Positions 9,593 to 32,163 of a DNA stretch of 64,000 nucleotides are shown here, piece after piece; the first letter of the stretch is position 1; each line of letters starts with the position of its first letter. The notes below the pieces were generated by a model, which ran no database searches, was not told where the DNA came from, and saw only the letters and a list, made by a program, of their open reading frames with translations. Made by a program: the position numbers and the translations under genes. The stretch comes from Streptomyces tsukubensis (lineage in GTDB: Bacteria > Actinomycetota > Actinomycetes > Streptomycetales > Streptomycetaceae), in contig NZ_CP045178.1 in the NCBI RefSeq assembly GCF_009296025.1, forward strand, positions 248,001-312,000. Direction: 5' to 3'.

Positions 9593-9829
9593 ATGACCGA
9601 TGCGGTATTCGATACGGTGCGGGACTGCGCGGTGGAGGTCCTGCAAGTCGCTCCGGACGAGGTGACCGAGGACGCGGTCTTCACCGAACACCTCGGGGCC
9701 ACCAGCCTGACCCTGGTGGAGCTGATCATGGCGATCGAGGAGGCGAGCGGGGTCGATCTGCCCGACACGGGTGTCGAGTCCGTCAGAACAGTGCGGGACG
9801 CCTGCGAGTTGGTGCGTGGCCGACTATGA
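9593..9829 (+). CDS. Acyl carrier protein
   Basis: 78 residues, acidic, typical ACP length. The phosphopantetheine site is S38 in HLGATSLTLVELIMAIEE; the usual Asp before the Ser is Thr here, which is uncommon but keeps the serine. Its stop overlaps the ATG of the next gene (ketosynthase), and bioF follows, so this is a dedicated carrier within a biotin gene set and not the housekeeping ACP (that one normally sits with fabD/fabH/fabF). It probably carries the acyl chain made or used by its neighbours, perhaps pimeloyl-ACP for BioF; this is inference from context. Confidence 0.88.
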   Translation: MTDAVFDTVRDCAVEVLQVAPDEVTEDAVFTEHLGATSLTLVELIMAIEEASGVDLPDTGVESVRTVRDACELVRGRL

Positions 9830-11034
9830 GGGCGGGCCGGCGCGTGGTGGTGACCGGGCTCGGCAGTGTGACGGCGGCGGGCTCGGGCTGTGACGCCCTC
9901 TGGCAGGACCTGCTGGCTCCGCCTCCTTTGGGACACCGGCCCCTGGAGGAGTGGGACGCCGCTCCCTGGATGGACCGTTCCGAGATCCGGCACACCGACC
10001 GCTGTACCCAGTTCGCGGTGGCCGCCGCCGCGCTCGCGGTGACGGACGCAGGTGGGGCGGAGAAGCTGGCGCCCCGCGCGGAGACCTGGCGTGCGGGGGT
10101 CGTCCTCGGTACCGCGCTCGCCGGGGTGTCCACCTTGGAGCGGCAGTCCCTGATCCGTGAGGCCCGCGGTGACAAGCGGGTCTCCCCCTTCGTCGTACCG
10201 ATGATCATGCCCAACGCGGCGGCTTCCGCCGTGTCGCAGCGGCTGGGCTGGCGGGGACCGTGCGAGACCCTGACGACCGCTTGCGCCTCGGGTACGCACG
10301 CCATCGCCTCGGCAGCACGGCTGATCGCGTACGGAGTCTGCGACACCGTCGTGACCGGCGGCACGGAGGCGGCGGCGTACGGGACCGTCCTCGCGGGGTT
10401 CTCCAATATGCGCGCCCTGTCGGCGGGAGACCGTACGCGTCCCTTCGACTCCGGCAGGGACGGGTTCACCGTGGCCGAGGGCGCGGCGGCGCTGGTGCTT
10501 GAGGCGGCGGACACGGCAGAGGAGCGCGGGGCGCGGGTGTACGCCGAGGTTCTGGGCGCGGCCAACACCGCTGACGCCCACGACGTGACCGCCCCACTGG
10601 CCGACGGATCGGCGGCGGCCCACTGCATGAGCCTCGCCCTGCGCGACGCGGCCCTCGCCCCCTCGGATGTCGCACAGCTCAGCGCGCACGGCACGGGAAC
10701 GGTCCGGGGCGATCTGGCGGAGTCGCTGGCGATCGCCGGGGTGTTCGGGGACGCGGGACCGCCCGTCACCTCGGCGAAGGGCGCCACGGGGCACGCCTTC
10801 GGGGCGAGCGGCGCTCTGGAGGCGGTGGCCGCGGTGCTGTCCCTCGCGTACGGGGTGATCCCGCCCGTCCAGGGGCTCACGACACCCGATCCGGAACTGG
10901 GCGGAGTCCTGGATCTGGTGCGTGGCTCGCCACGCCCTTGGACGCCGGGCCCCATTCTGTCCAGCTCTTTCGGGTTCGGTGGGCAGAACGGCAGCGTGGT
11001 GCTGGGGCCCGTCCGAGGTCCTCAGGCGACGTAA
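9826..11034 (+). CDS. 3-oxoacyl-ACP synthase, KAS II (FabF) type
   Basis: 402 residues from ATG 9826, in ATGA overlap with the ACP stop. Thiolase-fold ketosynthase with the Cys-His-His triad: C153 in TTACASGTHAI, H288 in LSAHGTGTVRGD, and H323 in KGATGHAFGASGA, with K318 also present. It should condense an acyl group with malonyl-ACP. Length and motifs are FabF-like and not FabH-like, so it is not BioZ. Placed between a private ACP and bioF, it may extend a chain towards the biotin precursor. Alternatively it could be part of a polyketide remnant, but no other such gene is nearby. Confidence 0.88.
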   Translation: MRAGRRVVVTGLGSVTAAGSGCDALWQDLLAPPPLGHRPLEEWDAAPWMDRSEIRHTDRCTQFAVAAAALAVTDAGGAEKLAPRAETWRAGVVLGTALAGVSTLERQSLIREARGDKRVSPFVVPMIMPNAAASAVSQRLGWRGPCETLTTACASGTHAIASAARLIAYGVCDTVVTGGTEAAAYGTVLAGFSNMRALSAGDRTRPFDSGRDGFTVAEGAAALVLEAADTAEERGARVYAEVLGAANTADAHDVTAPLADGSAAAHCMSLALRDAALAPSDVAQLSAHGTGTVRGDLAESLAIAGVFGDAGPPVTSAKGATGHAFGASGALEAVAAVLSLAYGVIPPVQGLTTPDPELGGVLDLVRGSPRPWTPGPILSSSFGFGGQNGSVVLGPVRGPQAT

Positions 11035-11056
11035 CGGCACACCAGGGAGTCTCCGT

Positions 11057-12229
11057 ATGAACCGGACGAGGCAGGACCACCGTCCCTCCGCCGACACCGT
11101 GTTCGACTGGCTGGACGACAGCGCCCGGCGGAGGGAACGCGCGGGTCTCCGGCGTGAGATGCGGGTCAGAGACGCCTCCGCGCCGGGGATCAACCTCGCG
11201 GGCAACGACTATCTCGGGCTCTCCTCGCACCCCGAGGTGACCTCGGCCGCGGGCGAGGCCGCCGTGCGGTGGGGCGCGGGTTCGGGTGCGGCGCGGCTGG
11301 TCACCGGCACCACCCGGCTCCATGTGGAGCTGGAGCGGGAACTCGCCGCGTTCTGCGGCTTCGAGGCCGCCCTCGTCTTCTCCTCCGGCTATCTGGCCAA
11401 TCTGGGCGTCCTCACCGCGCTGTGCAGGCCCGGCAGCCTGGTGGTGGCCGACAGGACCAACCACGCTTCTCTGATCGACGGGTGCGGGCTCTCCGGCGCC
11501 GAGGTCGTGGACATCCCGCACAACGACCCGGTCACCCTGGACGAGACCCTCACCGCCGGGGGCCGGCCACGGGCGCTCGTGGTGACCGAATCCGTCTTCT
11601 CGGTGGACGGGGACCTCGTGGACCTGGACGAGGTGTACGCCACCTGCCGTGGCCACGGCGCGGCGCTGCTGGTGGACGAGGCGCACGCGCTCGGAGTGGT
11701 CGGTGAACGGGGCGAGGGCGCGCTGGGCGCCGCGGGACTCGCGGGCAGGCCCGACACAGTGGCCACCGTCACCCTGTCGAAGTCGCTCGGTGCGCAGGGC
11801 GGCGCGGTGCTCGGCCCCCGCCGGGTGATCGAGCATGTGCTCAACAGCGCGCGCGGCTTCCTGTTCGACACGGGTCTCGCCCCGGCCTGCGCCGGGGGCG
11901 CGCTCGCGGCGCTGCGGATCCTCGACCGGGAGCCGGCACGGGTGGCCAGGCTCCGTACCGTGGCGACGCGGCTCCACCAGGGGCTGGCCGCTGCCGGGCT
12001 GCCGGTGAGTCCCGCGCGCGCCGCTGTGGTGTCCGTGCGCGCGGGTTCCGCCCGCTCGGCGGTCGCGTGGCGGGAGGAGTGCCGGGCGGCCGGGGTCGAG
12101 GTGGGGTGTTTCCGCCCGCCCTCGGTACCCGACCGGTTCTCCCGGCTGCGGCTCACCGCGCGGGCCGATCTGAGCGACGCCGAGGTCGACCGGGCGGTAC
12201 AGGTGATCACGGAGCACCGTCCCGGCTGA
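11057..12229 (+). CDS. bioF: 8-amino-7-oxononanoate synthase
   Basis: 390 residues; ATG 11057 with AGGGAG upstream. A PLP alpha-oxoamine synthase that joins pimeloyl thioester and L-alanine, releasing CO2, in the first ring-forming steps of biotin synthesis. Seen: LAGNDYLGLSSHP (48-60), GAGSGAARLVTGT (73-85), ADRTNHASLIDG (131-142), DEAHALGVVG (208-217) and the PLP lysine K242 in TLSKSLGAQGG. It is third in the ACP-ketosynthase-bioF series, 22 bases after the ketosynthase, and converges with the bioA-bioD-bioB-P450 series. It could in principle be a 2-amino-3-ketobutyrate CoA ligase, but the neighbours make bioF far more likely. Confidence 0.9.
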   Translation: MNRTRQDHRPSADTVFDWLDDSARRRERAGLRREMRVRDASAPGINLAGNDYLGLSSHPEVTSAAGEAAVRWGAGSGAARLVTGTTRLHVELERELAAFCGFEAALVFSSGYLANLGVLTALCRPGSLVVADRTNHASLIDGCGLSGAEVVDIPHNDPVTLDETLTAGGRPRALVVTESVFSVDGDLVDLDEVYATCRGHGAALLVDEAHALGVVGERGEGALGAAGLAGRPDTVATVTLSKSLGAQGGAVLGPRRVIEHVLNSARGFLFDTGLAPACAGGALAALRILDREPARVARLRTVATRLHQGLAAAGLPVSPARAAVVSVRAGSARSAVAWREECRAAGVEVGCFRPPSVPDRFSRLRLTARADLSDAEVDRAVQVITEHRPG

Positions 12230-12260
12230 CCGCGCCCGCACGGCGGCCGTGTACTGCAGA

Positions 12261-12427
12261 CCGGTGCGGGCCGCCGTCGTACGGCAACCGGTGCGGGCCG
12301 CGGCCGTACGCCGGACCGATACGCGCCGCCACCGTACGAGAGACCGAACCCGTCCGCCGCCGAACGGCAGACCGGTGCGGGCCACCGCCGAACGCCATAC
12401 CGCCAGCCGATACGGGCGCGGGTGGTA
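12261..12427. repeat. 28-bp degenerate tandem repeat, six units
   Basis: Six units in register: 12261-12287 (27 bp), 12288-12315, 12316-12343, 12344-12371, 12372-12399 and 12400-12427 (28 bp each). Units begin CCGGTGCGGGCC or variants and end in ACGGCA-like or CGTACGC-like sequence. The block fills the 214-base gap between the convergent bioF and P450 genes. The period is not a multiple of three, so it is not coding. It is not a CRISPR: there are no separate spacers. Confidence 0.75.
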
Positions 12428-12443
12428 CCGGACCGGGGGCTGA

Positions 12444-13736
12444 TCAGGGGCCGTCGGCCGGTCGTGACGCGTGGCCCACCCCCGTCCCGCGAGCGACGGG
12501 GACGGTCACGGGCGCCCGGAACGACAGCAGCCCCCGCATCGGGACGTCCTCCTCCGCGCAGGTCAGCCGCAGATCGGGCAGGCGGGCGGAGACCGCTCTC
12601 AGCACCACCTCGGCCTCGGTCCGCGCGAGAGCCGCGCCGGGGCAGCGGTGGCGCCCGATGCCGAAGGCGAGGTGTTCCCTGCCGCGCGGCCGGCCGGGGC
12701 GGATCGTCTCGGGCGCGTCGTACACCTCGTCGTCGGATCCGGTGGCCGCAAGCATCAGCAGCAGCTGCGCCCCGGCGGGAAGTTCGACGTCGCCGAGCCG
12801 GGCGGGCCTGGCGGTCACCCGCCGCCAAGTGGTCAGCGGCGGCTCACGGCGCAGTAGTTCCTCGGCCCAGAGCGCCGCCCGTCGGTCGGCCCGCCCGAGC
12901 AGGGGCCACAGCTCAGGTTCGGACAGGGCGCGCAGGAGCATGGTGGCGAGCATCTGCCCCGTGGTGGTCTGCCCCGCGATGACCATGAAGTAGCAGACGG
13001 CGATCCTCTCCTCGCGTCGCAGCGGAGCGCCGTCGGGCTTCCGGTGCGCGGCGAGCAGACCGAGGAGGCCGGCGTCGCCCGGCCGCGCTCCCGCGGTGAG
13101 TTCGTCGAGCCACTGGTAGAACTCGGCGGCGAGTTCGGCGAGTTCCACGTGCCGCTCCCGTGGCGGCATGCCCCAGAAGAGTTCGAGCGAGGCGTCGTTC
13201 CAGCGGGCGAGCCGCTCGATGTCCGCGTCGGCCTTCCCTTCGAGGCCGAGCACCTTGAGCATCACCTCGAAGGGCAGATCCCTGGTGAGCGCCGTCACCA
13301 GGTCGCAGCTTCCGTCGGTGGCGAGACTCCTCTCGATGCTGTCGATGCGGGGCGCGAGAAGGGATTCGATGACGGGGACGGTGGCCACCACCCGGTCCCT
13401 GGCCAGGAGTCCCGTGATGATTCTGCGCAACCCCGCGTGGCTGTCCGTGCCATTGTTGGCGAGCGTCGGCGGCAGGGTGAACCCCGCGGCGGCCAGGCGG
13501 CGCAGTGCGGGAACGGAGAGTCTCGCCACCGCGTCGAGGGCGTTGTCGGGGCGGTAGAGCTCGGGGGCGAGGAGCACCCGCCGCACGTCGCGGTAGGTGC
13601 TGACGAGCCACAGACCGGTCCCGGGGTCCCGGTGCACGGGGCTCGTCTCCCGCAGCGCCCCGTACAGCGGGTAGGGGTCGCGCAGGAACTCCGAGGAGAA
13701 CAGGTCCACCCCGGGGCACCGGTCTGTGTTACTCAC
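12444..13736 (-). CDS. Cytochrome P450 in the biotin operon (BioI-like candidate)
   Basis: 430 residues. Heme-binding [15 protein letters not shown] with thiolate C365; ExxR as E293-LL-R296; I-helix IAGQTTTG (about 253-260), where the usual acidic residue of the AGx(D/E)T(T/S) motif is Thr. Soluble class I type, so it needs a ferredoxin supplied elsewhere. Its ATG overlaps the bioB stop (ATGA), making it the last gene of the bioA-bioD-bioB series. In Bacillus, BioI is a P450 in the biotin operon that cleaves long-chain acyl-ACP to pimeloyl-ACP; the position here suggests a parallel role, which is inference. The last 20 or so residues are low-complexity. Confidence 0.85.
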
Positions 13737-14929
13737 ATATCCACCCGCTGCCCCGAGGTGTGCGGCACAGTGCCGGGCGCCTGGCCTTCCGCTTCCGAAG
13801 GTTCACCGTCGGTGGTGGCCGGGGCGAGCGCGTTGGGCGGGAGCGTGGTGCCCGCGCCGCGCCTGCGTACCTTGACCACGTCGTCCCTGTGCTCGGGCAT
13901 GGTGACCTCCTCCATGCCCTCGACGGCGAACCCCGCGTCCCTGATCATGTCGAGGTCCGCGGCCCCCGGCTGCCCCTCACTGGTCAGGTAGTCGCCGAGG
14001 AAGATGGAGTTGGCGATGTGCAGGGCCAGCGGCTGCATACCGCGCAGATGGATCTCACGGCCCCCGGCGAGCCGTACCTCGACGTCGGGGCAGACGAACC
14101 GCACCATCGCCAGGATGCGCAGGCAGCGCTGCGGAGTGAGTGCCCACTCGGAGGCGAGCGGTGTGCCCTTGAACGGCATCAGGAAGTTCACCGGGACCGA
14201 GTCCGGGTCGAGGGCGCGCAGCGAGAAGGCCACGTCGACCAGTTCCTCCGGGGTCTCGCCCATGCCGGCTATCAGCCCCGAACACGGCGAGAGACCGGCG
14301 GACTTGGCCTGTTCTACGGTCTCCACCCGGTCGGTGTAGGTGTGGGTGGTGCAGATGTCGGCGTAGCGCTCGCCAGCGGTGTTGAGGTTGTGGTTGTAGG
14401 CGTCGGCTCCGGCCTCGCCGAGCCGCTCCGCCTGCCCGTCGGAGAGCAGTCCGAGGCAGGCGCAGACCTCGACGCCGGGGCTCTCCTCCCGGATCGCGGC
14501 GATGGTCTCCGAGACACGGCCGATGTCACGGTCGGTGGGGCCGCGGCCGCTCGCCACCAGGCAGACCCGCTTTGCGCCGGCTGCGACGCCCTGGGCGGCC
14601 GCGTCCGCCGCCTCCTTGGGCTTCAGCCAGGTGTACTTGAGAATCTCGGCCTGTGAGCCGAGCCGCTGGGAGCAGTAGGAGCAGTCCTCGGGACAGAGAC
14701 CGCTCTTGAGGTTGACGAGGAAGTTCAGCTTCACCCTCCGGCCGAAGTACTGCCGGCGTACCCGCGAGGCCGCGGCCACGACGTCGAGTACGGCCTCGTC
14801 GGGGACCATGAGGAGCGCCAACGCCTCGGCCCGGGTGGGTAGTTCGCGGCGAAGCCCCTTGTCGACCAGCGTATCGAGGAGTTCGCCGTGGTCGGTGTAC
14901 TTGTCGGTCGCTGTGGGAGTGGAGTCCAC
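13733..14929 (-). CDS. bioB: Biotin synthase
   Basis: 398 residues from GTG 14929, chosen because GGAAGGAA lies in front and the family alignment starts soon after. Radical SAM enzyme that inserts sulfur into dethiobiotin. C79-x3-C83-x2-C86 in [10 protein letters not shown] binds the 4Fe-4S cluster; [17 protein letters not shown] and [11 protein letters not shown] follow as in BioB, providing ligands for the second cluster. The C-terminus is about 40 residues longer than usual and Pro/Glu/Gly-rich. It is preceded by a 230-base gap after bioD and overlaps the P450 start, so P450 and bioB are translationally coupled. Confidence 0.95.
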
Positions 14930-15160
14930 GGGGTTCCTTCCCGTTCGGACGTACGGATGCGGAGCCGGTAGGGATGCGTGCGGAGCCCGAAGGCTGTGTG
15001 CGCAGCCGGTCCTGCTGGTGCGCGGAGCGGCCACGGCTGTGCGCGTAACCCGTCCGGCCCCTTGGCCGGACGGCCCGTTCTTCCCGGAACTGAGTATTCT
15101 CCCGGCCACGGCGGCGGTAAAGACACACGGTCAGGACAGCGGCCCGTGGGCCGTTTCCCG

Positions 15161-15877
15161 TCAGGCCGGCCAGCCCTTCACGAAGGTCTCCGCGTCGAAC
15201 TCGCCGCCCAGCGAGGCGTCGAGACCCGCACGTGCGACGGCGGCGAACGCGGCTCTGTCGAGTACGGCGGAGGCGTGCGGGATCACACCGAGGAGAGGGG
15301 TTCTCGCCATGTCGGGGAGATCGACGAGGTTGCACCGCATGGCCAGATCCGGTCGGGCGGGCCAGCTTCCGATGACGGCGCCCCGCAGCTCCGCCCCCCT
15401 GTGGCGCAGGGCTTGGGCGGTCAGGGCCGCGGCGTTGAGGGTGCCGAGTCCCGCGGCCGCGACCATCACGGTCGGGGCGTCGAGTTTCACGACGAGGTCG
15501 GCCAGGGTCCATCCCGTGTCGTCGAAGCGCGCGAGCAGCCCGCCCGAGCCTTCCACCAGTACGAGGTCGTGTTCGGCGTCCAGGGCCCGCACGGCCTCCA
15601 CGGCGGTGTCGAAGCGTAGCCCGGTCCGCTGCGCTCTGCGCGCCGCGGTGTCAGGGGCCAACGGGTCGGGGTAGCGGGCGAGTTCACGGGTCTCGACCGC
15701 TCCCGCGAGCCGCCGCACCTCGGCCAGGTCGCCGTCCTCCCCCGGCAGGAGACCGGTCTGTGCGAGCTTGGCCACGGCGACGCGCGCCCCCGCGGCCACC
15801 GCGAGCGCGGCGACGGCGGCCGTGGTCACGGTCTTGCCGACCTCGGTGCCTGTTCCTGTGACGGCGAGCAGCGTCAT
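15161..15877 (-). CDS. bioD: Dethiobiotin synthetase
   Basis: 238 residues from ATG 15877, preceded by GGAGGAGGG. ATP-dependent enzyme closing the ureido ring of dethiobiotin from DAPA and CO2. The P-loop is GTGTEVGKT (8-16); LVEGSGGLLARF matches the family's VEGAGG motif, with Ser for Ala. It lies 159 bases downstream of bioA and upstream of bioB on the same strand. The small inverted repeat CCGGT-TGT-ACCGG (15901-15913) sits just upstream and could be regulatory. Confidence 0.93.
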   Translation of the reverse strand: MTLLAVTGTGTEVGKTVTTAAVAALAVAAGARVAVAKLAQTGLLPGEDGDLAEVRRLAGAVETRELARYPDPLAPDTAARRAQRTGLRFDTAVEAVRALDAEHDLVLVEGSGGLLARFDDTGWTLADLVVKLDAPTVMVAAAGLGTLNAAALTAQALRHRGAELRGAVIGSWPARPDLAMRCNLVDLPDMARTPLLGVIPHASAVLDRAAFAAVARAGLDASLGGEFDAETFVKGWPA

Positions 15878-16036
15878 CGTCCCTCCTCCGTTGTTCTTCA
15901 CCGGTTGTACCGGATATGCCCGGGGCGTCAATGTGCCGGGCGTACGACCGTTTTCGATGACCGCGCGTGCGAGGGCGGCGGGACGGACCGGCTCCACTCG
16001 GGGGCTGACCGCTCCCCCGGTCCCCGAGGGGTCTGA

Positions 16037-17329
16037 TCAGCCGGCCTGCGCGGCGGCCACCAGTGCCTCGGCGACGGTCGCCGTCTCGTCCTCGGTGCAT
16101 ATGTACGGCGGCATGGCGTAGACGAGGTCCCTGAACGGCCGTAGCCACACCCCGCGGTGTGCCGCCGCGGCGGTCGCGGCGGCCAGGTCCACGGGGTGGT
16201 CGAGCTGGATCACGCCGATGGCCCCGAGTACCCGTACGTCCGTGACGGCCGGCAGCTTCGCCGCCTCGGTGAGCCCCTCGCGCAGGCCGTGCTCGACGCG
16301 CGCCACGTCGCGCCGCCAGTCGCCCTGTTCCAGGAGGTCGAGGGAGGCTCCCGCGACCGCGCAGGCGAGCGGATTGCCCATGAAGGTCGGGCCGTGCGCG
16401 AGGACGGGTACCTCGCCCTCCGAGATACCCCGCGCCACTTCGGGTGTGCACAGGGTGGCGGCGAGCGAGAGGTAGCCGCCGGTGAGTGCCTTGCCCACGC
16501 ACAGGACGTCCGGGGTCACTCCCGCGTGGTCCGCGGCGAAGAGCTGTCCTGTCCTGCCGAAGCCCGTGGCGATCTCGTCGAAGACCAACAGGACGTCGTT
16601 GTCCCTGCACGCCTCGGTCAGGATCCGCAGGTACCCGGGGTGGTGGAAGCGCATACCGCCCGCGCCCTGCACCACCGGTTCGACGACGACGGCCGCCAGT
16701 TCCGGGGCGTACCGCCGCACGGCGGAGGTGAGGAGCTGCGCGTACGCGGGGTCCACGGGGGTGTCGAAGCCGGCCGGGGGCGCGTCGGTGAAGAGCTGGG
16801 TGGGCATCACGTCCCGCCACATGCCGTGCATACCGCCTTCGGGGTCGCAGACGGACATGGCGTGCAGGGTGTCGCCGTGGTAGCCGCCGCGCCAGGTGAG
16901 GATCCTGTGCCGCTCGGGCCGTCCTCGGGAACGCCAGTACTGGAGGCACATTTTGAGGGCGACCTCGACGGAGACGGAACCGGAGTCGGCGAGGAAGACG
17001 TGTTCGAGGCCGTCGGGGGTCAGGGAGACGAGCCGGGACGCGAGTTCCACGGCGGGGGCGTGCGTCACTCCGCCGAACATGACGTGGCTGATTCTGCCGA
17101 GCTGATCGCGTACGGCCGCGTCCAGCGTGGGATGGGTGTACCCGTGGATCGCCGCCCACCAGGACGACATCCCGTCGATCAGTTCGGTGCGTCCTTGGAA
17201 CGGCGTGGCCAGGGTCAGCCGCACCCCGCGCCCGGACTCGACGACCAGTGGGGGCGTGTCGGCCGGCATCGGCGCGTAGGGGTGCCAGACGTGGCGGCGG
17301 TCGAACGCGAGTAACTCCTCAGGCGTCAC
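16037..17329 (-). CDS. bioA: Adenosylmethionine-8-amino-7-oxononanoate aminotransferase
   Basis: 430 residues from GTG 17329. Class III PLP aminotransferase converting KAPA to DAPA with SAM as amino donor. Seen: WHPYAPM (15-21), [13 protein letters not shown] (52-64, typical of BioA), [31 protein letters not shown] (251-261) and PLP lysine K280 in [10 protein letters not shown]. First gene of the leftward bio series. There is no ribosome binding site in front of the GTG, while a -10-like TATGCT ends nine bases upstream, so the message may be leaderless. Confidence 0.95.
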
Positions 17330-17337
17330 GGTGGATG

Positions 17338-17366
17338 AGCATAGGGGCCAGGCCCTGTGTGCGGAA
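17338..17366 (-). promoter_or_regulatory. Putative bioA promoter giving a leaderless transcript
   Basis: Read on the minus strand, TTCCGC (17366-17361), a 17-base spacer and TATGCT (17343-17338) precede the GTG at 17329. The transcript would begin about two bases before the start codon. No Shine-Dalgarno sequence is present. Confidence 0.35.
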
Positions 17367-17410
17367 TGGTGCCTTCGTGAACGGCCGTGGGTTCTGCGCG
17401 GCGGTCGGCC

Positions 17411-18403
17411 TCAGCTGTCGAGGCGGATCAGTACCTTGCCCCGCCGTCCCGGCTCGGCGTCGCGCTCCAGCGCCTCCCGTACGTGGGAGAGCGGATGCGT
17501 GGACGCCACCGGGGACGCCGCGGTGCCCTCACGTACCAGAGCGAACACTTCGGTCAGGGCCGCGGTGAGCCGGTCGGGGGGCGCGGCGTGGACCCAGTCC
17601 CTGAGCCGGAAGAGCACGATGCGGGCGTCGGGGCGGTCCTGGGCGAGTTCCCACGACAGCGGGCGTCCGGAGAGCAGGCCGTAGTGGACCAGGGTGCCGC
17701 CGTCCGCGAGCGCCCGGCCCAGTTCCGTGCCCTCGGTCCCGCCGACGGCGTCGAGCACCACATCGGGCCCGCGGCCCCGGGTGATCTCGCGTACGGCGTC
17801 GGCCGCGGGCCGATCCTCGGTGCAGACCGCCGCCGTCAGCCCGTCGCCGGGCAGCCGGTCGAGGCTGCGCCGCCGCCTGACCAGGGCGATGGGGCTGATC
17901 CCCTCCTTGTTCAGCATCCTGATCAGGATCTGTCCGATGGCGGAGGCGGCGGCGTTGATCACGACGGTCCTCGCCCCGGTGGCGATGGTGTGTCGCCGCA
18001 CCATCAGGAGCGCGGTCAAGGGGTTGATGTAGGCGGTGGCGGCCTCTTCGTCGGTGAGAGCGGGGTCCACGGGGAAACACCAGCGCGCCGCTGTGACCTT
18101 GGTCTGCTGCCAGGCTCCTGCGCTGCCGAGCGGGAGGACACGCAGACCTGCCCGGAGCCCGGTCACTCCCGTCCCTGTCGCCTCGACCACTCCCACCCCC
18201 TCGTAGCCGGGTACGAACGGGAGGTCGGTCCGTGAGGCGTAGGCGCCGGAGATGGTCACCAGGTCCGAGGGGTTGACGCCGGCCAGCAGCATCCGGACGG
18301 CCACCTGGCCGGGGCCTGGCGCGGCGGGCTCGTAGCGCTCGGTGCGTACCACCTCCGCCGCGGGGCCGAATTCCCTGACGACGCTTCTCACAGCTCGGGC
18401 CAT
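17411..18403 (-). CDS. MDR-family oxidoreductase, possibly enoyl thioester reductase
   Basis: 330 residues from ATG 18403. Medium-chain dehydrogenase/reductase without the zinc-binding cysteines. GroES-like N-terminal half with LLAGVNPSDLVTISG; Rossmann half with INPLTALLMV and VVINAAASAIGQILIRM, the NADPH-binding stretch; DVVLDAVGG follows. The ITPLTA-like and NAASSAVGQ-like motifs resemble mitochondrial-type 2-enoyl thioester reductases (MECR/Etr1) and quinone reductases. An enoyl reductase next to an ACP, ketosynthase and thioesterase would fit acyl-chain synthesis, but this is inference. It ends 82 bases from the bioA start on the same strand and diverges from the thioesterase gene. Confidence 0.75.
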   Translation of the reverse strand: MARAVRSVVREFGPAAEVVRTERYEPAAPGPGQVAVRMLLAGVNPSDLVTISGAYASRTDLPFVPGYEGVGVVEATGTGVTGLRAGLRVLPLGSAGAWQQTKVTAARWCFPVDPALTDEEAATAYINPLTALLMVRRHTIATGARTVVINAAASAIGQILIRMLNKEGISPIALVRRRRSLDRLPGDGLTAAVCTEDRPAADAVREITRGRGPDVVLDAVGGTEGTELGRALADGGTLVHYGLLSGRPLSWELAQDRPDARIVLFRLRDWVHAAPPDRLTAALTEVFALVREGTAASPVASTHPLSHVREALERDAEPGRRGKVLIRLDS

Positions 18404-18449
18404 CGGAGAAGTCCTCACGTGGTGGTGACAGTCCGGTACTGACCTGGGT

Positions 18450-18469
18450 ACCGTGTTGATCACAACGGT
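18450..18469. promoter_or_regulatory. Palindromic operator between MDR reductase and thioesterase-bioMNY operon
   Basis: ACCGTGTTGATCACAACGGT is a 20-base palindrome with eight of ten pairs matching, in the middle of the 107-base divergent intergenic region. It could bind a dimeric repressor controlling both directions. It does not resemble the BirA site of E. coli as I recall it. Confidence 0.4.
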
Positions 18470-18510
18470 CACCGATCGCAGGTGACCATACACGGGGAGC
18501 GTGAGGGTTC

Positions 18511-18966
18511 GTGCGCAGGCGTGTTCCGTTCTCCGATGTGGACATGCACGGTCATGTGCACAACGGTGTCTACTGCTCCTACGCGGAGACGGCGATCAAT
18601 GAGTTCCTTCGTGAGGAAGGGCTCACCGAACGGTTCGACCCGAGAGCCGACGCCCACGGTGTCGTCTATCACGTGAAGAGGATCGAGCTCGATTACGAGG
18701 GATCCGCCGGATTCGACGACGTTCTCGATCTCGCCGCGGCCGTGCACCGCGTCGGCAACAGCAGCCTGACCTTCTCCGTGGCGGTGACCCGCGCCGAGGA
18801 CGGGGCACCGGTCGCGCGTGCCGAGGTCGTCTGGGTCTGCGTCGACCCGGGCAAGGGCCGCCCCCGTCCGCTGCCTGAGCCGACCCGGAAGGCGCTCGCC
18901 GCCGTGCGGGGCCCGGAGAGGCCCGCGGAGACCGAGGCGCCCCGGCGCCGTAACGAAGAACGGTGA
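18511..18966 (+). CDS. Hotdog-fold acyl thioesterase (4HBT type)
   Basis: 151 residues from GTG 18511, with GGGGAG/GAGG upstream. RRRVPFSDVDMHGHVHNGVY is the hallmark of the 4-hydroxybenzoyl-CoA thioesterase/YbgC group: the catalytic Asp in SDVD and the HxHVxN stretch. Such enzymes hydrolyse acyl-CoA or acyl-ACP. It is first in the operon with the biotin ECF transporter genes; its stop overlaps the GTG of the ATPase gene. The tail after about residue 120 is charged and low in complexity. Confidence 0.82.
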   Translation: MRRRVPFSDVDMHGHVHNGVYCSYAETAINEFLREEGLTERFDPRADAHGVVYHVKRIELDYEGSAGFDDVLDLAAAVHRVGNSSLTFSVAVTRAEDGAPVARAEVVWVCVDPGKGRPRPLPEPTRKALAAVRGPERPAETEAPRRRNEER

Positions 18967-19661
18967 CAGTGCGCATCACACTGAGGGACGTCTCCGTACG
19001 GTTCGGGGAGCGCACCGTACTCGACTCGGTCGACGTCGAGTTGAACGAGCGGCGGATCGGCGTGGTCGGGGCCAACGGCTCCGGCAAGAGCACCTTCGCC
19101 AGGCTCCTCAACGGCCTCGTCCTGCCCAGTGAGGGCAGTGTGGTGGTCGGGGACCATGACACGGCGAAGGAGGCCCGCAAGATCCGTAGACAGGTCGGGT
19201 TCGTCTTCCAGAACCCGGACAACCAGATCGTCCTTCCCATAGTCGAGGAGGACATGGCGTTCGGGCTCAAGAACACGGGTGTGCCCCGCAAGGAGATACC
19301 GGGCCGGGTCCGCGCGCAGTTGGAGAACCTGCGCATCGCCGAGCTGGCCGAGCGGCCGAGCCACGCCCTCAGCGGGGGTGAGAAGCAACTCGTGGCGCTG
19401 GCCTCGGTTCTGGTGATGCGGCCGGGGACCGTCGTGTTCGACGAGCCGACCACTCTCCTCGACCTCCGCAACCGCAATGTGCTGCGCGCACTGATCGCCG
19501 CCATGCCTCAGCAGGCCATCGTCGTCACCCACGACCTGGACCTGCTGTCCGACTTCGACCGGGTGCTCGTCATCGACGAGGGCCGCGTCGTCCACGACGG
19601 GGTGCCCTCGGTCGCCGTGCCCTGGTATGTGGAACGCCAGTCGGTGGAGCGCATGCCATGA
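18963..19661 (+). CDS. bioM: Biotin ECF transporter ATPase (BioM / EcfA)
   Basis: 232 residues from GTG 18963 (GTGA overlap with the thioesterase stop). ABC ATPase with Walker A GANGSGKST (36-44), the Q-loop in VFQNPDNQIV typical of ECF ATPases, signature LSGGEKQ, Walker B VVFDEPTTLLD and the H-loop in VVTHD. It energises uptake together with the T component and BioY encoded next. ECF systems often have two ATPases; here there is one, so it probably works as a homodimer, as known for BioMNY. Confidence 0.9.
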   Translation: MTVRITLRDVSVRFGERTVLDSVDVELNERRIGVVGANGSGKSTFARLLNGLVLPSEGSVVVGDHDTAKEARKIRRQVGFVFQNPDNQIVLPIVEEDMAFGLKNTGVPRKEIPGRVRAQLENLRIAELAERPSHALSGGEKQLVALASVLVMRPGTVVFDEPTTLLDLRNRNVLRALIAAMPQQAIVVTHDLDLLSDFDRVLVIDEGRVVHDGVPSVAVPWYVERQSVERMP

Positions 19662-20332
19662 GGATGTCGCTCTATGTCCCCGGTCATTCGCCGCTGCACC
19701 GGATAGCCGCCCGGTGGAAGCTGGGGGCGCTGGTCCTCTGCGGTGTGGGCGTCTTCCTGACCACGTCGGTCCTCGTTCTCGGCCCCGCTGCGGCCTTGGC
19801 CGTGGTGCTGCTGGTGAGCGTACGGGCACCCGTGGAGCAGCTGAGCCGTCAGCTCAAGGGACCACTCGTCATCCTGGCCGTCGTGGTGGCGGTGGCCGCG
19901 CTCACGCAGTCGGTGCACAGCTCGCTCGTCGTCGGACTGCGTCTGGTCGTACTCCTGTTGGCCTCGCTGAGTGTCACCCTGACCACGCGGACCTCCGAAC
20001 TCCAGGGCGTACTGGAAGTGGTGCTGCGACCGCTGGAACGGGTGGGGCTGGTGAACGCCTCGGCCATCGCGCTGGCCGTGTCGCTGGCGCTACGCTTCAT
20101 CCCCGAGGTCTTCCAGCAGTTCCAGGACATCAGGGAGGCCCAGGCCGCGCGCGGCCTGCGGGGGAGCCCGCTCGCCCTCGTCGTACCCCTGGTGGTGCGT
20201 TCGCTGAAGTCGGCGGAGGACATCGCCGCGGCCATCGACGCCCGCTGTTATCCGCCGACCCGCTCCGGCCGCGCCGGAGACTCCGACGGCGGCGGACCCA
20301 CCGACAGGCACAGTGGAAAGGTCCCCGGATGA
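19658..20332 (+). CDS. bioN: ECF transporter transmembrane T component (BioN)
   Basis: 224 residues; ATG in ATGA overlap with the ATPase gene. N-terminal SLYVPGHSPLHRIAARWKLG is the typical EcfT opening; several membrane helices follow. The cytoplasmic coupling motifs are AARGLRG and, about 25 residues on, AIDARCYPP, where the usual second Ala-Arg-Gly is Ala-Arg-Cys. It links the ATPase to BioY. Membrane protein; the stop overlaps the bioY start. Confidence 0.9.
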   Translation: MRMSLYVPGHSPLHRIAARWKLGALVLCGVGVFLTTSVLVLGPAAALAVVLLVSVRAPVEQLSRQLKGPLVILAVVVAVAALTQSVHSSLVVGLRLVVLLLASLSVTLTTRTSELQGVLEVVLRPLERVGLVNASAIALAVSLALRFIPEVFQQFQDIREAQAARGLRGSPLALVVPLVVRSLKSAEDIAAAIDARCYPPTRSGRAGDSDGGGPTDRHSGKVPG

Positions 20333-20910
20333 GCGTACGCAACCGACGCCCGATGGGCACCAGAGACATCGTGCTGATCGCCCTGTTCGGAGCCATCATC
20401 GTCGCACTGGGGCTGATCCCCCCGGTCAACATCGCGATCGTGCCGGTGCCGATCACCTTGCAGACGCTGGGGGTGATGCTCGCGGGGGCGATACTCGGCC
20501 CGATCCGCGGTGCCTGTGCCTGCGCGCTGGTCGTTCTGCTGACCGCGCTCGGCCTTCCGGTGCTCGCGGGCGGCCGGGGCGGGCTCGGCGTGTTCCCCGG
20601 ACCGACCGGTGGTTATCTGGTGGGCTGGATTCCGGGCGCCTTCGTCACGGGGTTCCTCGTCAAGACCTTCGCGATGCGTGTCAAGGGGCGTGTCCCGCAG
20701 CTCGGCGCGTATTTCGTCTCCTGCGTGGTGGGCGGGCTCCTCGTCGTCTACGCGCTCGGTGTGCCGTGGACTTCCGTCTCCACCGGCCTCAGTATGAGGA
20801 AAGCCCTGGTCGGGGCCCTCTACTTCGCGGTCGGGGACACCCTGAAAGCAGTGGTGACGGCAGCCATCGCCTACAACGTACGACGGTCCTATCCGATCGA
20901 ACCGAGGTGA
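20329..20910 (+). CDS. bioY: Biotin transporter substrate-binding subunit BioY
   Basis: 193 residues, ATGA overlap with bioN. About six membrane helices. The BioY signatures are visible: VPVPITLQTLGVMLAGAILG and GPTGGYLVGWIPGAF, which form the biotin-binding side of the S component. With bioM and bioN it makes a complete high-affinity biotin importer in the cytoplasmic membrane. Having import and synthesis genes side by side suggests shared biotin control. Confidence 0.95.
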   Translation: MSVRNRRPMGTRDIVLIALFGAIIVALGLIPPVNIAIVPVPITLQTLGVMLAGAILGPIRGACACALVVLLTALGLPVLAGGRGGLGVFPGPTGGYLVGWIPGAFVTGFLVKTFAMRVKGRVPQLGAYFVSCVVGGLLVVYALGVPWTSVSTGLSMRKALVGALYFAVGDTLKAVVTAAIAYNVRRSYPIEPR

Positions 20911-20920
20911 GTGAGCGCGG

Positions 20921-22570
20921 ATGCCGATGGCTCAGTCTGTGGCACGGGCGGGGGCGGGGCCCCTCGGGGACGAACCCGCCTTCGTCCTCGGGGACCATGT
21001 CCAGTCACATCGTGAACTGGCGGCGCGGGCGGCGGCGGTGGCGGCCGGGCTGCGTTCCGTACCCGCGCTTTCCAGAACGTGGCTGCCCTCGGGGACCCGG
21101 CTGCTCGCCATCGGTACGGGCAACCACCGGGTCTTCGCCGAACTGTTCACCGGCGCGACGGCGGGGGACGGTGTCTGCGCCGTCCTCGATCCTCAGTGGG
21201 GCACGGAACGTACCCGTGCGGTGCTCGATCGGCTCCGCCCCGACCTGCTGGTGCTCTCCGCCGGCCAGAAAGGGACGCGGGAGGCCGCGGGGGAACTCGG
21301 CATCCGTACGCTGACCGCGGGGGACTTCGCGCCCGGTGTGTACGCCGACGGATCCGGCGTCCGAGGGGGCGAGCCCGTCACACCCGGCGAGGTCACGCCC
21401 GTTGACGGGCTCTCCTCTTACGAGACCTGGCTCGCCGAGTGGGCGGGAGCGGATCCCGCCGGCCATCTTGTGCCCGGCGACGACCTCGCTCCGTTCCTCG
21501 TCGGATTCACTTCGGGGAGCACCGGCCTGCCCACCGCCTTCCACCGCTCGCGCCGCTCCTGGCGGATCAGTCTCGCGGAGGGGAGGAAGGTCTGGGGTAT
21601 GGACGAGGGGCAGCGGACCCTCGCACCGGGACCCCTCGCGCACGGGCTCAGTCTCTACGCGCTCGCGGAGTGTCTGGAGAGCGGGGCCGCCTTCCACGGG
21701 CTGCCGAGCTTCGACGCCCCCGCCATTCTGCGGGAGCCGTCCACGGCGTGGGCGCGCCGGCTGATCGTCGTGCCGACCATGCTCACCGCGCTGTGTTCCG
21801 CCGCGGCCGACTTCGGCGCGCAGGAGGCGGCGCGCCACCTCGCCTCGGTGAGAACGGTGGTCAGCGGCGGCGCCAAGCTCCCCCAGCGGCTGCTCGGCCC
21901 GGTCGCCGCGCTGCTGCCGCGGGCACGGGTCCTGGAGTACTACGGGGCGTCCGAGCTGGGCTTCGTCACGGTCGGCTCGTCCGGTCACGCGACGGGTCCC
22001 AGGGATGTCGGTACCGCCTTCCCCGGTGTCTCGCTGGAAGTCCGCGACGCGCAGGGGGCACCCGTGCCGCCGGGGACCACGGGCACGGTGCATGTGCGCA
22101 CTCCGCTGCGGTGCGACGGCTATGTGTGGGGCGAGGGCAGTTTCCGGCAGGACGGTGAGTGGGCGACGGTCGGGGACATCGGGCAGCTCACCGAGGACGG
22201 CCATCTCCATCTCACCGGCCGGGGCGGCATGGTGATCACCGGTGGGCTGAACGTCTATCCGTCCGAGGTGGAGAACGCCCTGTCCCGGCTGGAGGGGATC
22301 GAGACCGCGCTGGTGACCTCCGTGCCCGACGACTATCTCGGTCAGGCGCTCGTCGCGGTCGTCACAGGGGCCGCGGCGGGGCTCGGCCAGTCCGCGCTGC
22401 GGGAGCTGTGCGCCGCCGCGCTGCCGCGTTATCAGGTGCCCCGGCGTTTCTACACGCTCGCCACCTGGCCGCTGACGTCGAGCGGCAAGGTCGCGCGGGG
22501 CCGTATCGAGGAGTGGATCGCCCATGAAGACGCCCGGCTCGTCCCCCTTCCCGGCCTCTCCCGTGAGTGA
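20921..22570 (+). CDS. Acyl-CoA synthetase (AMP-binding)
   Basis: 549 residues, ATG 20921 ten bases after bioY with GAGGTGAG in front. Adenylate-forming enzyme: P-loop FTSGSTGLPTAFHRS, YYGASELG, TVGDIGQLTEDGHLHLTGR, GGLNVYPSEVE, and the catalytic lysine in LTSSGKVARG. It activates a carboxylic acid with ATP and CoA. From memory, Bacillus subtilis has a biotin-regulated set of bioY, a fatty-acyl-CoA ligase and a thiolase (yhfU-yhfT-yhfS), and the same order is seen here. A role in salvaging or making a pimeloyl or other acyl precursor is plausible but unproven. Confidence 0.85.
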   Translation: MPMAQSVARAGAGPLGDEPAFVLGDHVQSHRELAARAAAVAAGLRSVPALSRTWLPSGTRLLAIGTGNHRVFAELFTGATAGDGVCAVLDPQWGTERTRAVLDRLRPDLLVLSAGQKGTREAAGELGIRTLTAGDFAPGVYADGSGVRGGEPVTPGEVTPVDGLSSYETWLAEWAGADPAGHLVPGDDLAPFLVGFTSGSTGLPTAFHRSRRSWRISLAEGRKVWGMDEGQRTLAPGPLAHGLSLYALAECLESGAAFHGLPSFDAPAILREPSTAWARRLIVVPTMLTALCSAAADFGAQEAARHLASVRTVVSGGAKLPQRLLGPVAALLPRARVLEYYGASELGFVTVGSSGHATGPRDVGTAFPGVSLEVRDAQGAPVPPGTTGTVHVRTPLRCDGYVWGEGSFRQDGEWATVGDIGQLTEDGHLHLTGRGGMVITGGLNVYPSEVENALSRLEGIETALVTSVPDDYLGQALVAVVTGAAAGLGQSALRELCAAALPRYQVPRRFYTLATWPLTSSGKVARGRIEEWIAHEDARLVPLPGLSRE

Positions 22571-23828
22571 GCGGGCTCGGCGGGGGGAAGGGGGATTCCC
22601 CGACGACCGGTGGCCCGTGGTGATAGCGGCCCGCCGCACGCCGGTCGGGCGGGCCCGCGGCTCGTTGGCCGGGGTCGAGGCGTCGACGCTGGTGGCTTCG
22701 GTCATCCGGGACGTACTGGCCGACTCGGGCGCCGATCAGGACCGTGTCTGCGATGTGGTCGTCGGCAACGCCGCGGGCGGTGGCGGCAATCTCGCCAGGC
22801 TGGCGGCCCTGGAGGCGGGACTGCCCGTGGAGGTCCCCGGGGTCACCGTGGACCGGCAGTGCGGTTCGGGTCTTGAGGCCATCGTGCTGGCCTGCCGTCT
22901 CGTCGCCTCGGGCGCGGGTGACCTGTATCTGGCGGGTGGCGCGGAGAGTGTGAGCACCGCGCCCTGGCGTGCGCGGCAGCCGCGGCGCCCCGGTGGTCTG
23001 CCCGAGTTCTACGGGCGGGCCCGGTTCGCGCCGGAGTCGGTGGGCGACCCGGACATGGGGGTGGCGGCCGAGAACGTCGCGACGCGGTACGGCGTCGGCC
23101 GGCGCAGGCAGGACGAGTTCGCACTGCGCAGCCATCGGCGGGCCGTCGAGGCGCGGAAGAACGGCCGCTTCACGGCGGAGATCTCCCCGGTGACCACGGG
23201 TCGGGGCCTGGTCAGCACCGACGAGTGCCCCCGCCCGGACACCTCGCTCTCCGCGCTGTCCGCGCTGCCCCCGCTGTTCGCGGGCGAGGCCGGTGGCGAG
23301 GGCACGGTCACCGCGGGCAACTCCTGCCCGCTCAACGACGGGGCCGCCATGGCTGTCGTCACCAGCAGGTCGGTGGCCCGCTCCCTCGGCCACCGCGAGG
23401 TCCTCGGCTTCATCGACGCGAGCAGCGCGGGTGTGGACCCCAACCTGCTCGGCACGGGGCCGATCGCCTCCACGCGGCGGCTGCTCGCGCGGCGCCCCGA
23501 TCTCGCCGCACCGACGGGTACGTCGGGCCATGGCCCGGTGGCCGGGGTCGAACGCGTCGAGTTCAATGAGGCGTTCGCCTCTCAGGTACTCGCGTCGCTC
23601 GACAGCCTCGGCATCGAGGAGGAGCGGGTCAACCTCGACGGTGGCGCGCTGGCGCTCGGCCACCCGTTCGGCGCTTCGGGGGCGATCCTGGTGACGCGAC
23701 TGTTCAGCCAACTGGTCAGGGACCCGGCCGCCGCGCCGCAGCTGGGCGCGCGGGGCATGGCGATGCTGGGGATCGCGGGCGGTCTCGGCATCACCGCGCT
23801 CTTCTCCTCGCAGACGACGGCCGGTTGA
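22524..23828 (+). CDS. Thiolase-family protein lacking the C-terminal active-site cysteine
   Basis: 434 residues from ATG 22524 (GAGGAG ten bases upstream), overlapping the synthetase gene by 47 bases; a GTG at 22563 is an alternative start. Thiolase fold with the nucleophile C113 in VDRQCGSGLEA, FNEAFASQ and H380 in ALALGHPFGASGA. The second cysteine, normally in a CIGGGQG-type motif near the end, is glycine (G416 in MLGIAGGLG). A protein without this base could still bind and transfer acyl groups or decarboxylate, but should be poor at standard thiolase condensation. It is last in the bioMNY operon. Confidence 0.82.
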   Translation: MKTPGSSPFPASPVSERARRGEGGFPDDRWPVVIAARRTPVGRARGSLAGVEASTLVASVIRDVLADSGADQDRVCDVVVGNAAGGGGNLARLAALEAGLPVEVPGVTVDRQCGSGLEAIVLACRLVASGAGDLYLAGGAESVSTAPWRARQPRRPGGLPEFYGRARFAPESVGDPDMGVAAENVATRYGVGRRRQDEFALRSHRRAVEARKNGRFTAEISPVTTGRGLVSTDECPRPDTSLSALSALPPLFAGEAGGEGTVTAGNSCPLNDGAAMAVVTSRSVARSLGHREVLGFIDASSAGVDPNLLGTGPIASTRRLLARRPDLAAPTGTSGHGPVAGVERVEFNEAFASQVLASLDSLGIEEERVNLDGGALALGHPFGASGAILVTRLFSQLVRDPAAAPQLGARGMAMLGIAGGLGITALFSSQTTAG

Positions 23829-30930: not shown

Positions 30931-32163
30931 ATGAGCGAAGTTCAGGACGAGGCCGGGCCCACGGAGGCCTTCACGTACCCGATCGTCTCGTCGAAGGCGC
31001 TGGAACCGCCTGAGCGGTGGGCGGAGCTGCGGCAGACCTGTCCGGTAGCGCGGGTGACCTTGCCGAGCGGCGACGAGGCGACACTGCTGACGCGGTACGC
31101 GGATGTGAAGACCGCCCTGTCCGACCCGCGACTGAGCCGTGAGGGGCTGGCGTCGCCCGGCGCGGCCCGCATCTCGGGCGGGGACGCGGAGGGCGTCTTC
31201 AGCAGTCCGATGGCGAAGGCCCTCAACGCCGAAGGGCACGAGCGCTGGCGCCGGATGGTCGGCAAGTGGTTCACCGCGAAACGGATGACGGCGCTGCGGG
31301 CGGACATGGAGTCCATGGCCGACCGGCTCATCGACGCGATGCTCGACCACGGGGGCCCCGCGGACCTCATCACCCACCTCGCCTTCCCACTCCCCGTCCA
31401 TGTCATCTGCGCCATGCTCGGGGTGCCGGAAAGCGACAGGGACAAATTCAAGGGCTGGTCGGACACGTTCCTCAATCTGACGCGGTACACCCGCGAGGAG
31501 ACCGACACGGCGTACCGGGAGTTCGCCGCCTACATGTCGGGTCTGATCGACGAGAAGCGCGCGGCGCCCGGCGACGATCTGCTCAGCCTGCTCATGGACG
31601 GCGCCGACGCCGAGGGCCGGCCGATGTCGGACGCGGGTCTTGTCGCCACCGGACAGGCGCTGCTGCTCGCGGGCCACGAGACGACGGCCGGGTTCATCGC
31701 GATGATGACAGCGCACCTGCTCTCGGACCGAAGCCGCTGGGAGCGGCTGGTGGAGGACGGTTCACTGGTGCGCCAGGCCGTGGAGGAGGTGCTCAGGTTC
31801 GATCCGAACGGCAGTGGCTTCGGCATGCTGCGCTACGTCCACGAGGACACCGAGCTCTCCGGCGGGGCGGTGACGAGCGGGACCACCGTGGTGTGCAGCA
31901 TGGCATCGGCCAACCGCGACGAGAGCGTCTGGGAGAACGCGGACGAGATGGACCTGGGCCGCTCACCCAACCCGCATCTCGCCTTCGGCGCCGGCCCCCA
32001 CTCGTGTCTCGGCCAGCCGCTGGCCCGCACCGAACTCCAAGCAGTGCTCAGCGTCCTGCTGCGCCGGCTTCCCACCCTGGACCTCGCCGTCGACCCCGCG
32101 GAGCTGCGCCGGCGCGAGGGGCTGCTCACCGCGCCGCTGCGTGAGCTGCCGGTGACGTGGTGA
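30931..32163 (+). CDS. Cytochrome P450 (CYP107/105-like)
   Basis: 410 residues from ATG 30931 behind GAGGAGG. All P450 marks are present: I-helix LLLAGHETTAG with the acid-alcohol pair, ExxR in VEEVLRF, and heme loop FGAGPHSCLGQPLAR. Soluble bacterial class I monooxygenase that needs ferredoxin and reductase from elsewhere. No ferredoxin or biosynthetic genes are adjacent, so it looks like an orphan, perhaps for detoxification or tailoring. The stop overlaps the start of a TetR pseudogene, suggesting the pair was once a P450-regulator operon. Confidence 0.9.
   Translation: MSEVQDEAGPTEAFTYPIVSSKALEPPERWAELRQTCPVARVTLPSGDEATLLTRYADVKTALSDPRLSREGLASPGAARISGGDAEGVFSSPMAKALNAEGHERWRRMVGKWFTAKRMTALRADMESMADRLIDAMLDHGGPADLITHLAFPLPVHVICAMLGVPESDRDKFKGWSDTFLNLTRYTREETDTAYREFAAYMSGLIDEKRAAPGDDLLSLLMDGADAEGRPMSDAGLVATGQALLLAGHETTAGFIAMMTAHLLSDRSRWERLVEDGSLVRQAVEEVLRFDPNGSGFGMLRYVHEDTELSGGAVTSGTTVVCSMASANRDESVWENADEMDLGRSPNPHLAFGAGPHSCLGQPLARTELQAVLSVLLRRLPTLDLAVDPAELRRREGLLTAPLRELPVTW

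Follow-up and report, generated by a model that had tools for sequence, protein, structure and literature searches.

An mdb-type cluster of biotin genes in Streptomyces tsukubensis carries the only bioB and the only bioF of its strain, and the normal biotin operon of the genus is absent; this genomic arrangement is the new point of our analysis. The cluster lies at positions 9593-17329 of the 64,000-nucleotide stretch analysed here (the window; assembly GCF_009296025.1, contig NZ_CP045178.1, positions 248,001 to 312,000, that is, C2:248001-312000), in a genome of 8.63 Mb in 2 contigs with a completeness of 100%. Its gene order agrees with that of Streptomyces lydicus at 72-89% identity over the seven core genes, which supports our view that the locus is quite probably an mdb-type biotin-antimetabolite cluster. 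Because the only bioB of the genome sits in the cluster, either the enzymes of the antimetabolite also make biotin or the strain imports it.

In the cluster, the genes for a dedicated acyl carrier protein (ACP; MkpB-like, 9593..9829, + strand, PP-binding 46.7 bits), a FabF-type beta-ketoacyl-ACP synthase (KAS; MkpC-like, 9826..11034, +) and the 8-amino-7-oxononanoate (KAPA) synthase BioF (MkpD-like, mdb/mkp clade, 11057..12229, +) face those for a cytochrome P450 (MkpG-like, 12444..13736, -), BioB (13733..14923, -), the dethiobiotin synthetase BioD (15161..15877, -) and the 7,8-diaminopelargonic acid (DAPA) aminotransferase BioA (16037..17329, -), the last three of the mdb clade. All seven are open frames, the start codons of BioF, BioB and BioD being our choice. 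BioB (TIGR00433, 381 bits, cut-off 225), BioD (TIGR00347, 97.9 bits, cut-off 83.3) and BioA (TIGR00508, 544 bits, cut-off 405) exceed the curated cut-offs. The top NCBIfam match of BioF is TIGR00858, whose cut-off of 426.45 it misses with 382.6 bits, and the best-scoring class of the KAS is FabF/KAS II, though at 368 bits it is under the FabF cut-off (TIGR03150, 493.75). The original prediction, made from the letters of the window, had named the core genes bioF, bioB, bioD and bioA, a dedicated ACP, a FabF-type synthase upstream of bioF and a P450 overlapping bioB, and all of these stand, the overlap being 4 bases. The attachment serine of the ACP sits in G-A-T-S-L and is kept in 9 of 9 aligned ACPs, two of them from metagenome-assembled genomes (L051, L072) showing D-S-L. 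The Cys, His, Lys and His columns of the KAS that we take to be catalytic are unchanged in 16 relatives. In the P450, what we take to be the ExxR and haem-Cys motifs are intact, and the I helix reads AGQTTT, against AGQxTT in 16 aligned relatives.

The locus of S. lydicus NRRL ISP-5461 is identical to the S. tsukubensis cluster in gene set, order and strands, with identities of 82% for the ACP, 80% for the KAS, 81% for BioF, 76% for the P450, 89% for BioB, 72% for BioD and 85% for BioA, and of 71-82% for the genes beyond BioA. Going by strain numbers, we take this strain to be DSM 40461, the one of the published mdb work. In the parts of that work available to us, the mkp cluster of Streptomyces virginiae yields alpha-methyl-KAPA, which is lost when the ketosynthase, BioF-like or P450 gene is deleted, while mkpE and mkpF are dispensable, and labelled valine and threonine enter the product (PMC13336041). 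The same parts report that the S. lydicus bioADB-mkp cassette (mdb) in S. coelicolor gives alpha-methyldesthiobiotin, that MdbA and MdbB together perform the last steps in vitro, converting alpha-methyl-KAPA, and that KAPA is a substrate of S. lydicus BioA; loading, elongation and cleavage are given there as proposals (PMC13336041). The product is described as a methylated look-alike of a biotin precursor that inhibits biotin synthesis in other bacteria (PMC13336041, in the available parts). The published mdb cassette appears to correspond to the seven S. tsukubensis genes at 9593-17329.

These publications change how the original prediction can be read. Its claim that the full set had not been described is overtaken by the homologous mkp and mdb clusters. 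Its route, in which a chain built on a private ACP is cut by the P450 before BioF, agrees with the published model as far as we have it (PMC13336041), but the general supply of pimelate that it proposed does not, as the known product is a branched antimetabolite. The available main text, figures and tables aside, mentions none of BioY, thiolase, biotin uptake or auxotroph (PMC13336041). Within the open-access PMC literature, preprints aside, we recognised no paper in which an mdb cluster is the sole biotin locus; PMC13111796, as far as available, has acidomycin as its topic.

The normal operon was sought at its usual place. In 16 distinct primary loci (L104-L107 and L125-L136; L137 repeats L107), chosen by hand and non-randomly from the BioB survey and the cluster carriers, bioF is divergent from bioB-bioA-bioD. 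On the bioF side, all 16 have a relative of an NlpC/P60-like or anti-sigma-like gene of S. lydicus, and CBS-domain-like genes lie past bioD in 10 of 16 (names given by eye). The matching site in S. tsukubensis, at C2:about 944-949 kb, has ClpP, NlpC, anti-sigma and helix-turn-helix-like genes followed by LLM-type and CBS genes, with no bio gene between these flanks. Its DNA matches that of locus L128 at 72% over 1,443 aligned positions, a similarity that breaks off some 50 bases short of the bioF match of L128. Of 93 bio proteins (22 BioB, 24 BioA, 25 BioF, 22 BioD), none matches the site stretch at E <= 0.01, and none matches the whole 20 kb around it at E <= 0.001. As the site lies inside an 8.6 Mb contig, an assembly gap is unlikely. 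From the genus-wide site, rather than from a sister genome in transition, we infer that the normal bioF|bioBAD operon was lost here.

The genome-wide profile search agrees, with one bioB over the cut-off, that of the cluster, and no second bioF. A candidate second bioF at C2:572929 proved to be Kbl, glycine C-acetyltransferase (639 bits, cut-off 460), beside L-threonine dehydrogenase (Tdh). The original prediction had seen no bioC at the locus and had asked for bioC and bioH elsewhere in the genome; no BioC exceeds its cut-off genome-wide (best 67.8 of 184.95 bits), in a search that did not extend to BioH, BioW, BioZ or a second bioA or bioD. The prediction had named full supply of pimelate by bioC/bioH-type genes elsewhere as grounds for refutation, and for BioC this case did not arise. 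As the primary operon is absent, any biotin made by the strain must pass via the BioF and BioB of the cluster. What survives of the first idea is that, the normal operon being absent, the cluster may really be the biotin pathway of the strain.

Across the genus, the trio of ACP, KAS and P450 is not needed for biotin, because a BioB match at E <= 1e-60 occurs in 380 of 392 Streptomyces genomes and a cluster-type KAS at E <= 1e-115 in 5 of 392 (at most 4 scored candidates for each genome). A family draw overlapping this sample gave the KAS in 6 of 394. S. tsukubensis has one bioB, and the six other mdb entries (G641, G596, G141, G307, G696, G400) have two each. These entries represent about four species, with S. 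lydicus and S. albireticuli seemingly present twice each. In G001 and G002, repeated by G641 and G596, the two bioB copies are divided between the primary site and the mdb locus; for the other four entries, the comparison covers the counts and places of bioB. Two mkp carriers have one copy each, and G139, picked as a bioB-less genome, has none. No BioB match at this threshold was obtained in 12 of the 392 genomes, 10 of which have BioY; these 12 may be biotin auxotrophs, although the set includes incomplete assemblies.

In trees, the BioB, BioF, BioA and BioD of the cluster join the mdb copies with support of 100/100, 98/97, 100/100 and 100/99, respectively (near-copies G141 and L137 and one partial BioA were left out). 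For BioB, BioF and BioD, a single branch separates the 16 primary copies from all others. In the BioA tree, the copies beside mkp fall among primary BioA and mdb BioA is separate. In relative-rate comparisons over 13 genes (post hoc, uncorrected), the P450 shows 42 unique changes in S. tsukubensis against 15 in S. lydicus (p = 0.0005), BioA is weakly faster (p = 0.04), and P450, BioA, MDR-family reductase and EcfA all lean toward faster change here (p 0.0005 to 0.044). For BioB, the signal depends on the outgroup: with G307, S. tsukubensis has 6 unique changes against 18 in S. lydicus (p = 0.023, and p = 0.0023 when set against the 12 remaining genes combined); with the primary copy p_litch, 3 against 15-17 in copies from S. 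lydicus (p = 0.003-0.008); with a different primary BioB as outgroup, 5-6 against 13-15 (p = 0.08-0.12); with S. albireticuli, 7-9 against 11-13; and with S. cattleyicolor, 11-12 against 7-9. With ten mdb copies, stronger constraint on the S. tsukubensis BioB was thus outgroup-dependent and is not used as support.

By analogy with the homologues in S. virginiae and S. lydicus, the S. tsukubensis enzymes would act as follows. Housekeeping FabD/FabH would put a branched starter (isobutyryl or 2-methylbutyryl) on the private ACP, the FabF-type KAS would carry out two rounds of elongation, and the P450 would oxidise and cut the far end to give 6-methylpimeloyl-ACP. BioF would then join this with alanine to alpha-methyl-KAPA, which BioA and BioD would turn into alpha-methyldesthiobiotin. 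The linked ECF (energy-coupling factor)-BioY importer, in the role we assign to it, could supply biotin while the antimetabolite circulates. BioB of the cluster is probably a tolerant biotin synthase, and we slightly favour the idea that the cluster BioF and BioB also serve biotin synthesis here. Several points weigh against this picture. The product is known for the homologous clusters and would be carried over to S. tsukubensis by analogy, and acceptance of unbranched substrates by its BioF and BioA is putative. Two BioY genes leave pure import of biotin possible. As the P450 changed faster here than in S. lydicus, its substrate may differ. Finally, the 14 genes at 9593-23828 include no KAS III-type protein (FabH-like, MkpF), in line with the statement of the original prediction that a FabH-like BioZ was not seen; the contiguous S. 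lydicus block has no room for a FabH-like gene either, and mkpF is not needed in S. virginiae (PMC13336041, in the parts available).

How the strain obtains its biotin can be explained in different ways. The cluster BioF, BioA, BioD and BioB could make biotin from the pimeloyl thioester used throughout the genus, with ACP, KAS and P450 making the branched analogue, an account to which we give a little under an even chance. It is supported by the 16 primary loci, in which the ACP/KAS/P450 set is unattached to the operon, so that pimelate supply is apparently unlinked and may persist here, and by the reported use of KAPA by S. lydicus BioA and of alpha-methyl-KAPA by MdbA and MdbB (PMC13336041, available parts). 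The few unique changes of BioB with the p_litch outgroup would fit as well, but this signal is weak with another primary outgroup and gone with S. albireticuli or S. cattleyicolor. If instead ACP, KAS and P450 made unbranched pimeloyl-ACP, the cluster would be a complete, self-contained biotin pathway. Its possession of the genome's only bioB and bioF in the absence of the normal operon would suit such a pathway, and the faster divergence of the P450 from its S. lydicus homologue would fit a changed substrate. However, the homologous clusters yield the alpha-methyl compound (PMC13336041, available parts), biotin in the genus does not need the trio, and the six other mdb entries all keep a second bioB, which argues that the trio is not the ordinary biotin supply; we regard this account as clearly unlikely.

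Alternatively, the strain might have lost de novo synthesis and import its biotin, keeping the cluster solely for the antimetabolite; its immunity would then lie in the absence of a target pathway. The two BioY genes, one of them inside the conserved block, are consistent with this, and the genus seems to include other cases of such loss, judging from the genomes with BioY and no BioB match, some of which are incomplete assemblies. Against it, the frames of BioB, BioD and BioA are all open and score above the respective cut-offs, a pathway ending at alpha-methyldesthiobiotin would have no use for BioB, and a second BioY is not peculiar to S. tsukubensis, being found in all five other mdb entries checked. 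Auxotrophy is, in our judgement, rather unlikely. A further-reaching scenario, which we put forward tentatively and at somewhat less than even confidence, is that an apparently mobile antimetabolite cluster replaced the ancestral operon, and that the same BioF, BioA, BioD and BioB make both biotin and poison depending on the starter, with the extra importer as a safety line. If the cluster does feed biotin, a secondary-metabolism cluster would have taken over an essential vitamin pathway, and the strain would offer a natural single-copy background for the handling of KAPA versus its inhibitory methyl analogue by BioF, BioA and BioB, and also an inroad to the pimelate supply of Streptomyces, for which no gene was recognised in the normal operon. 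If the strain is an auxotroph, loss of the target pathway itself would be a form of producer immunity.

The extent of 9593..17329 in the original prediction was too short, as the conserved unit runs from the ACP to a thiolase at 23828 (about 14.2 kb, 14 genes) and adds seven genes. An MDR-family reductase (zinc-binding dehydrogenase/quinone reductase-like, 17411..18430, -), possibly an enoyl reductase, adjoins the cluster in S. lydicus, S. albireticuli, G307 and S. cattleyicolor, and a 4HBT (YbgC/FadM-type) acyl thioesterase (18511..18966, +; TIGR00051, 72.1 bits, cut-off 68.7) is kept in the same loci. The conserved ECF genes follow, namely an EcfA/BioM-like ATPase (18963..19661, +; TIGR04520, 215.6 bits, below the cut-off of 315; ABC_tran, 88.8 bits), an EcfT/BioN-like transmembrane subunit (19658..20332, +; PF02361 CbiQ, 64.5 bits) and the biotin-specific subunit BioY (20329..20910, +; PF02632, 127.7 bits). 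The next gene is a conserved AMP-forming acyl ligase (20921..22570, +; AMP-binding, 125.7 bits; PRK07638, 243 bits, below the cut-off of 518), presumably YhfT-like, for which a BioW model is absent among the best 25 of 93 matches. The block ends with the thiolase (22560..23828, +; TIGR01930, 357 bits, cut-off 240.55; Thiolase_N, 218.5 bits), which has PRK06690 among its top models, is presumably YhfS-like, and is present in the S. lydicus, S. albireticuli and S. cattleyicolor loci. The genes from MDR to thiolase adjoin the cluster in these three species, and in G307 as far as the ligase, where the stretch ends. Since the outer neighbours tested in the window have no counterpart in the relatives' stretches, save 30-39% matches of one protein part, the genes from ACP to thiolase look like one unit.

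The other BioY of the genome is at C2:2605387. Searching with the cluster BioY at E <= 1e-20 gave matches in 3 of 199 genomes. A general lack of BioY in streptomycetes was considered and rejected, as a family model detected BioY, in one copy or two, in 18 of 20 chosen genomes; what is rare is the cluster BioY subtype and the possession of a second copy. Between the MDR-BioA-BioD-BioB-P450 operon and the divergent thioesterase-ECF-BioY operon lies a gap of ~80 bases (18430-18511), in which S. tsukubensis has the inverted repeat GGTCACC-N7-GGTGACC. A common operator in this divergent promoter was dismissed, as the repeat has no clean match in two other strains tested. S. cattleyicolor carries the block on pSCATT, a linear plasmid of 1.81 Mb that is typed as mobilizable, and with one relative on a megaplasmid the antimetabolite cluster is apparently mobile. 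The bio locus of S. tsukubensis is about 0.26 Mb from one contig end. A methyltransferase-like match recurs with equal score at mirrored positions near the two contig ends, C2:11999-12352 and C2:8602863-8603216, and a single time on C1, which suggests that the termini carry inverted repeats of 12 kb or more.

The same gene order, with losses, is found in S. albireticuli and S. cattleyicolor; neither has a bioA match at the cluster locus, and S. albireticuli (L108/L019) has no match to the cluster P450 there. A second cytochrome P450 gene of the window (30931-32163; PF00067, 90 bits) lies outside the conserved block, and a 29% relative of it occupies the slot of the cluster P450, between BioB and BioF, in S. 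albireticuli L108. The shorter mkp type is present in S. avidinii, S. katrae and S. amritsarensis, the contig of the last stopping after BioF. The co-occurrence search proposed in the original prediction bore out the association of ACP, KAS and P450 with bio genes, which recurs in the same order in S. lydicus. When the species-genome collection was scanned with an alignment of 16 KAS sequences, 553 loci were confirmed; among the best 80, five are bio-linked and from Streptomyces, and the other 75 have no BioF, BioB, BioD, BioA or P450 match in the surrounding DNA. An ACP match is present in 64 of these 75 (L023-L097), and the closest KAS relatives outside Streptomyces among the 80 are from metagenome-assembled genomes, many of Acidimicrobiales/Acidimicrobiaceae, at 47-58% identity. 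The sequences suggest that the private ACP/KAS pair may derive from an old fatty-acid synthesis pair.

P450 relatives occur in 46 of the 392 genomes. Compared with 13 cluster proteins, 12 chosen neighbourhoods of these relatives contain no bio gene, ACP or KAS, the only matches being to the ABC-ATPase (4 loci) and, at 34%, to the thiolase (2 loci). In two of them (L169, L170), the P450 relative (57%) adjoins a conservon-like group, with genes resembling those for sensor, roadblock and GTP-binding proteins (named by eye), and the remaining ten are varied. Near the C-terminus of primary BioB, a low-complexity insert with at least 2 Cys is seen in 14 of the 16 distinct loci, with CGS/CGSH repeats in many; there is a single Cys in the primary copy of S. 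lydicus and none in L125 or the mdb copies. The insert could be a built-in counterpart of BsaP, an Fe-S auxiliary protein described in mycobacteria (PMC11099021, in the part available).

The cluster resembles the mdb cluster of S. lydicus DSM 40461 in its seven genes, their order and strands, at 72-89% identity, but S. lydicus has a primary bioF|bioBAD operon in addition, which S. tsukubensis lacks. With the mkp clusters of S. virginiae and S. avidinii, it shares ACP-KAS-BioF facing the P450 (KAS 61-62%, BioF 62-65%, P450 57-58%). The S. avidinii cluster is in a streptavidin region and includes a FabH-like gene (PMC13336041, available parts), whereas the S. tsukubensis cluster is without FabH. 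Additionally, the S. avidinii locus differs in having an MFS transporter gene before it, a ligase gene inside and a BioA copy nearby, and no bioB or bioD within 21 kb. The likeness to BioI of Bacillus subtilis drawn in the original prediction holds in that both are P450s thought to cut an ACP-bound chain, to pimeloyl-ACP in the case of BioI, but not in sequence, as the BioI structure 3ejb ranks 59th of the best 60 of 421 PDB matches (87.6 bits) and the top match is 5gwe (151.7 bits). BioI (CYP107H1) also uses general fatty acyl-ACP, unlike the arrangement here, which has a private ACP and KAS. The BioZ pathway of alpha-proteobacteria likewise reserves a ketosynthase for the pimelate end of the biotin route; however, BioZ is a KAS III (PMC8024396, in the part available), while the S. 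tsukubensis enzyme is FabF-like. The primary Streptomyces bioF|bioBAD operon encodes the same four ring-assembly enzymes, but it differs in gene order, site and clades, and has no ACP, KAS or P450 attached in the 16 loci compared.

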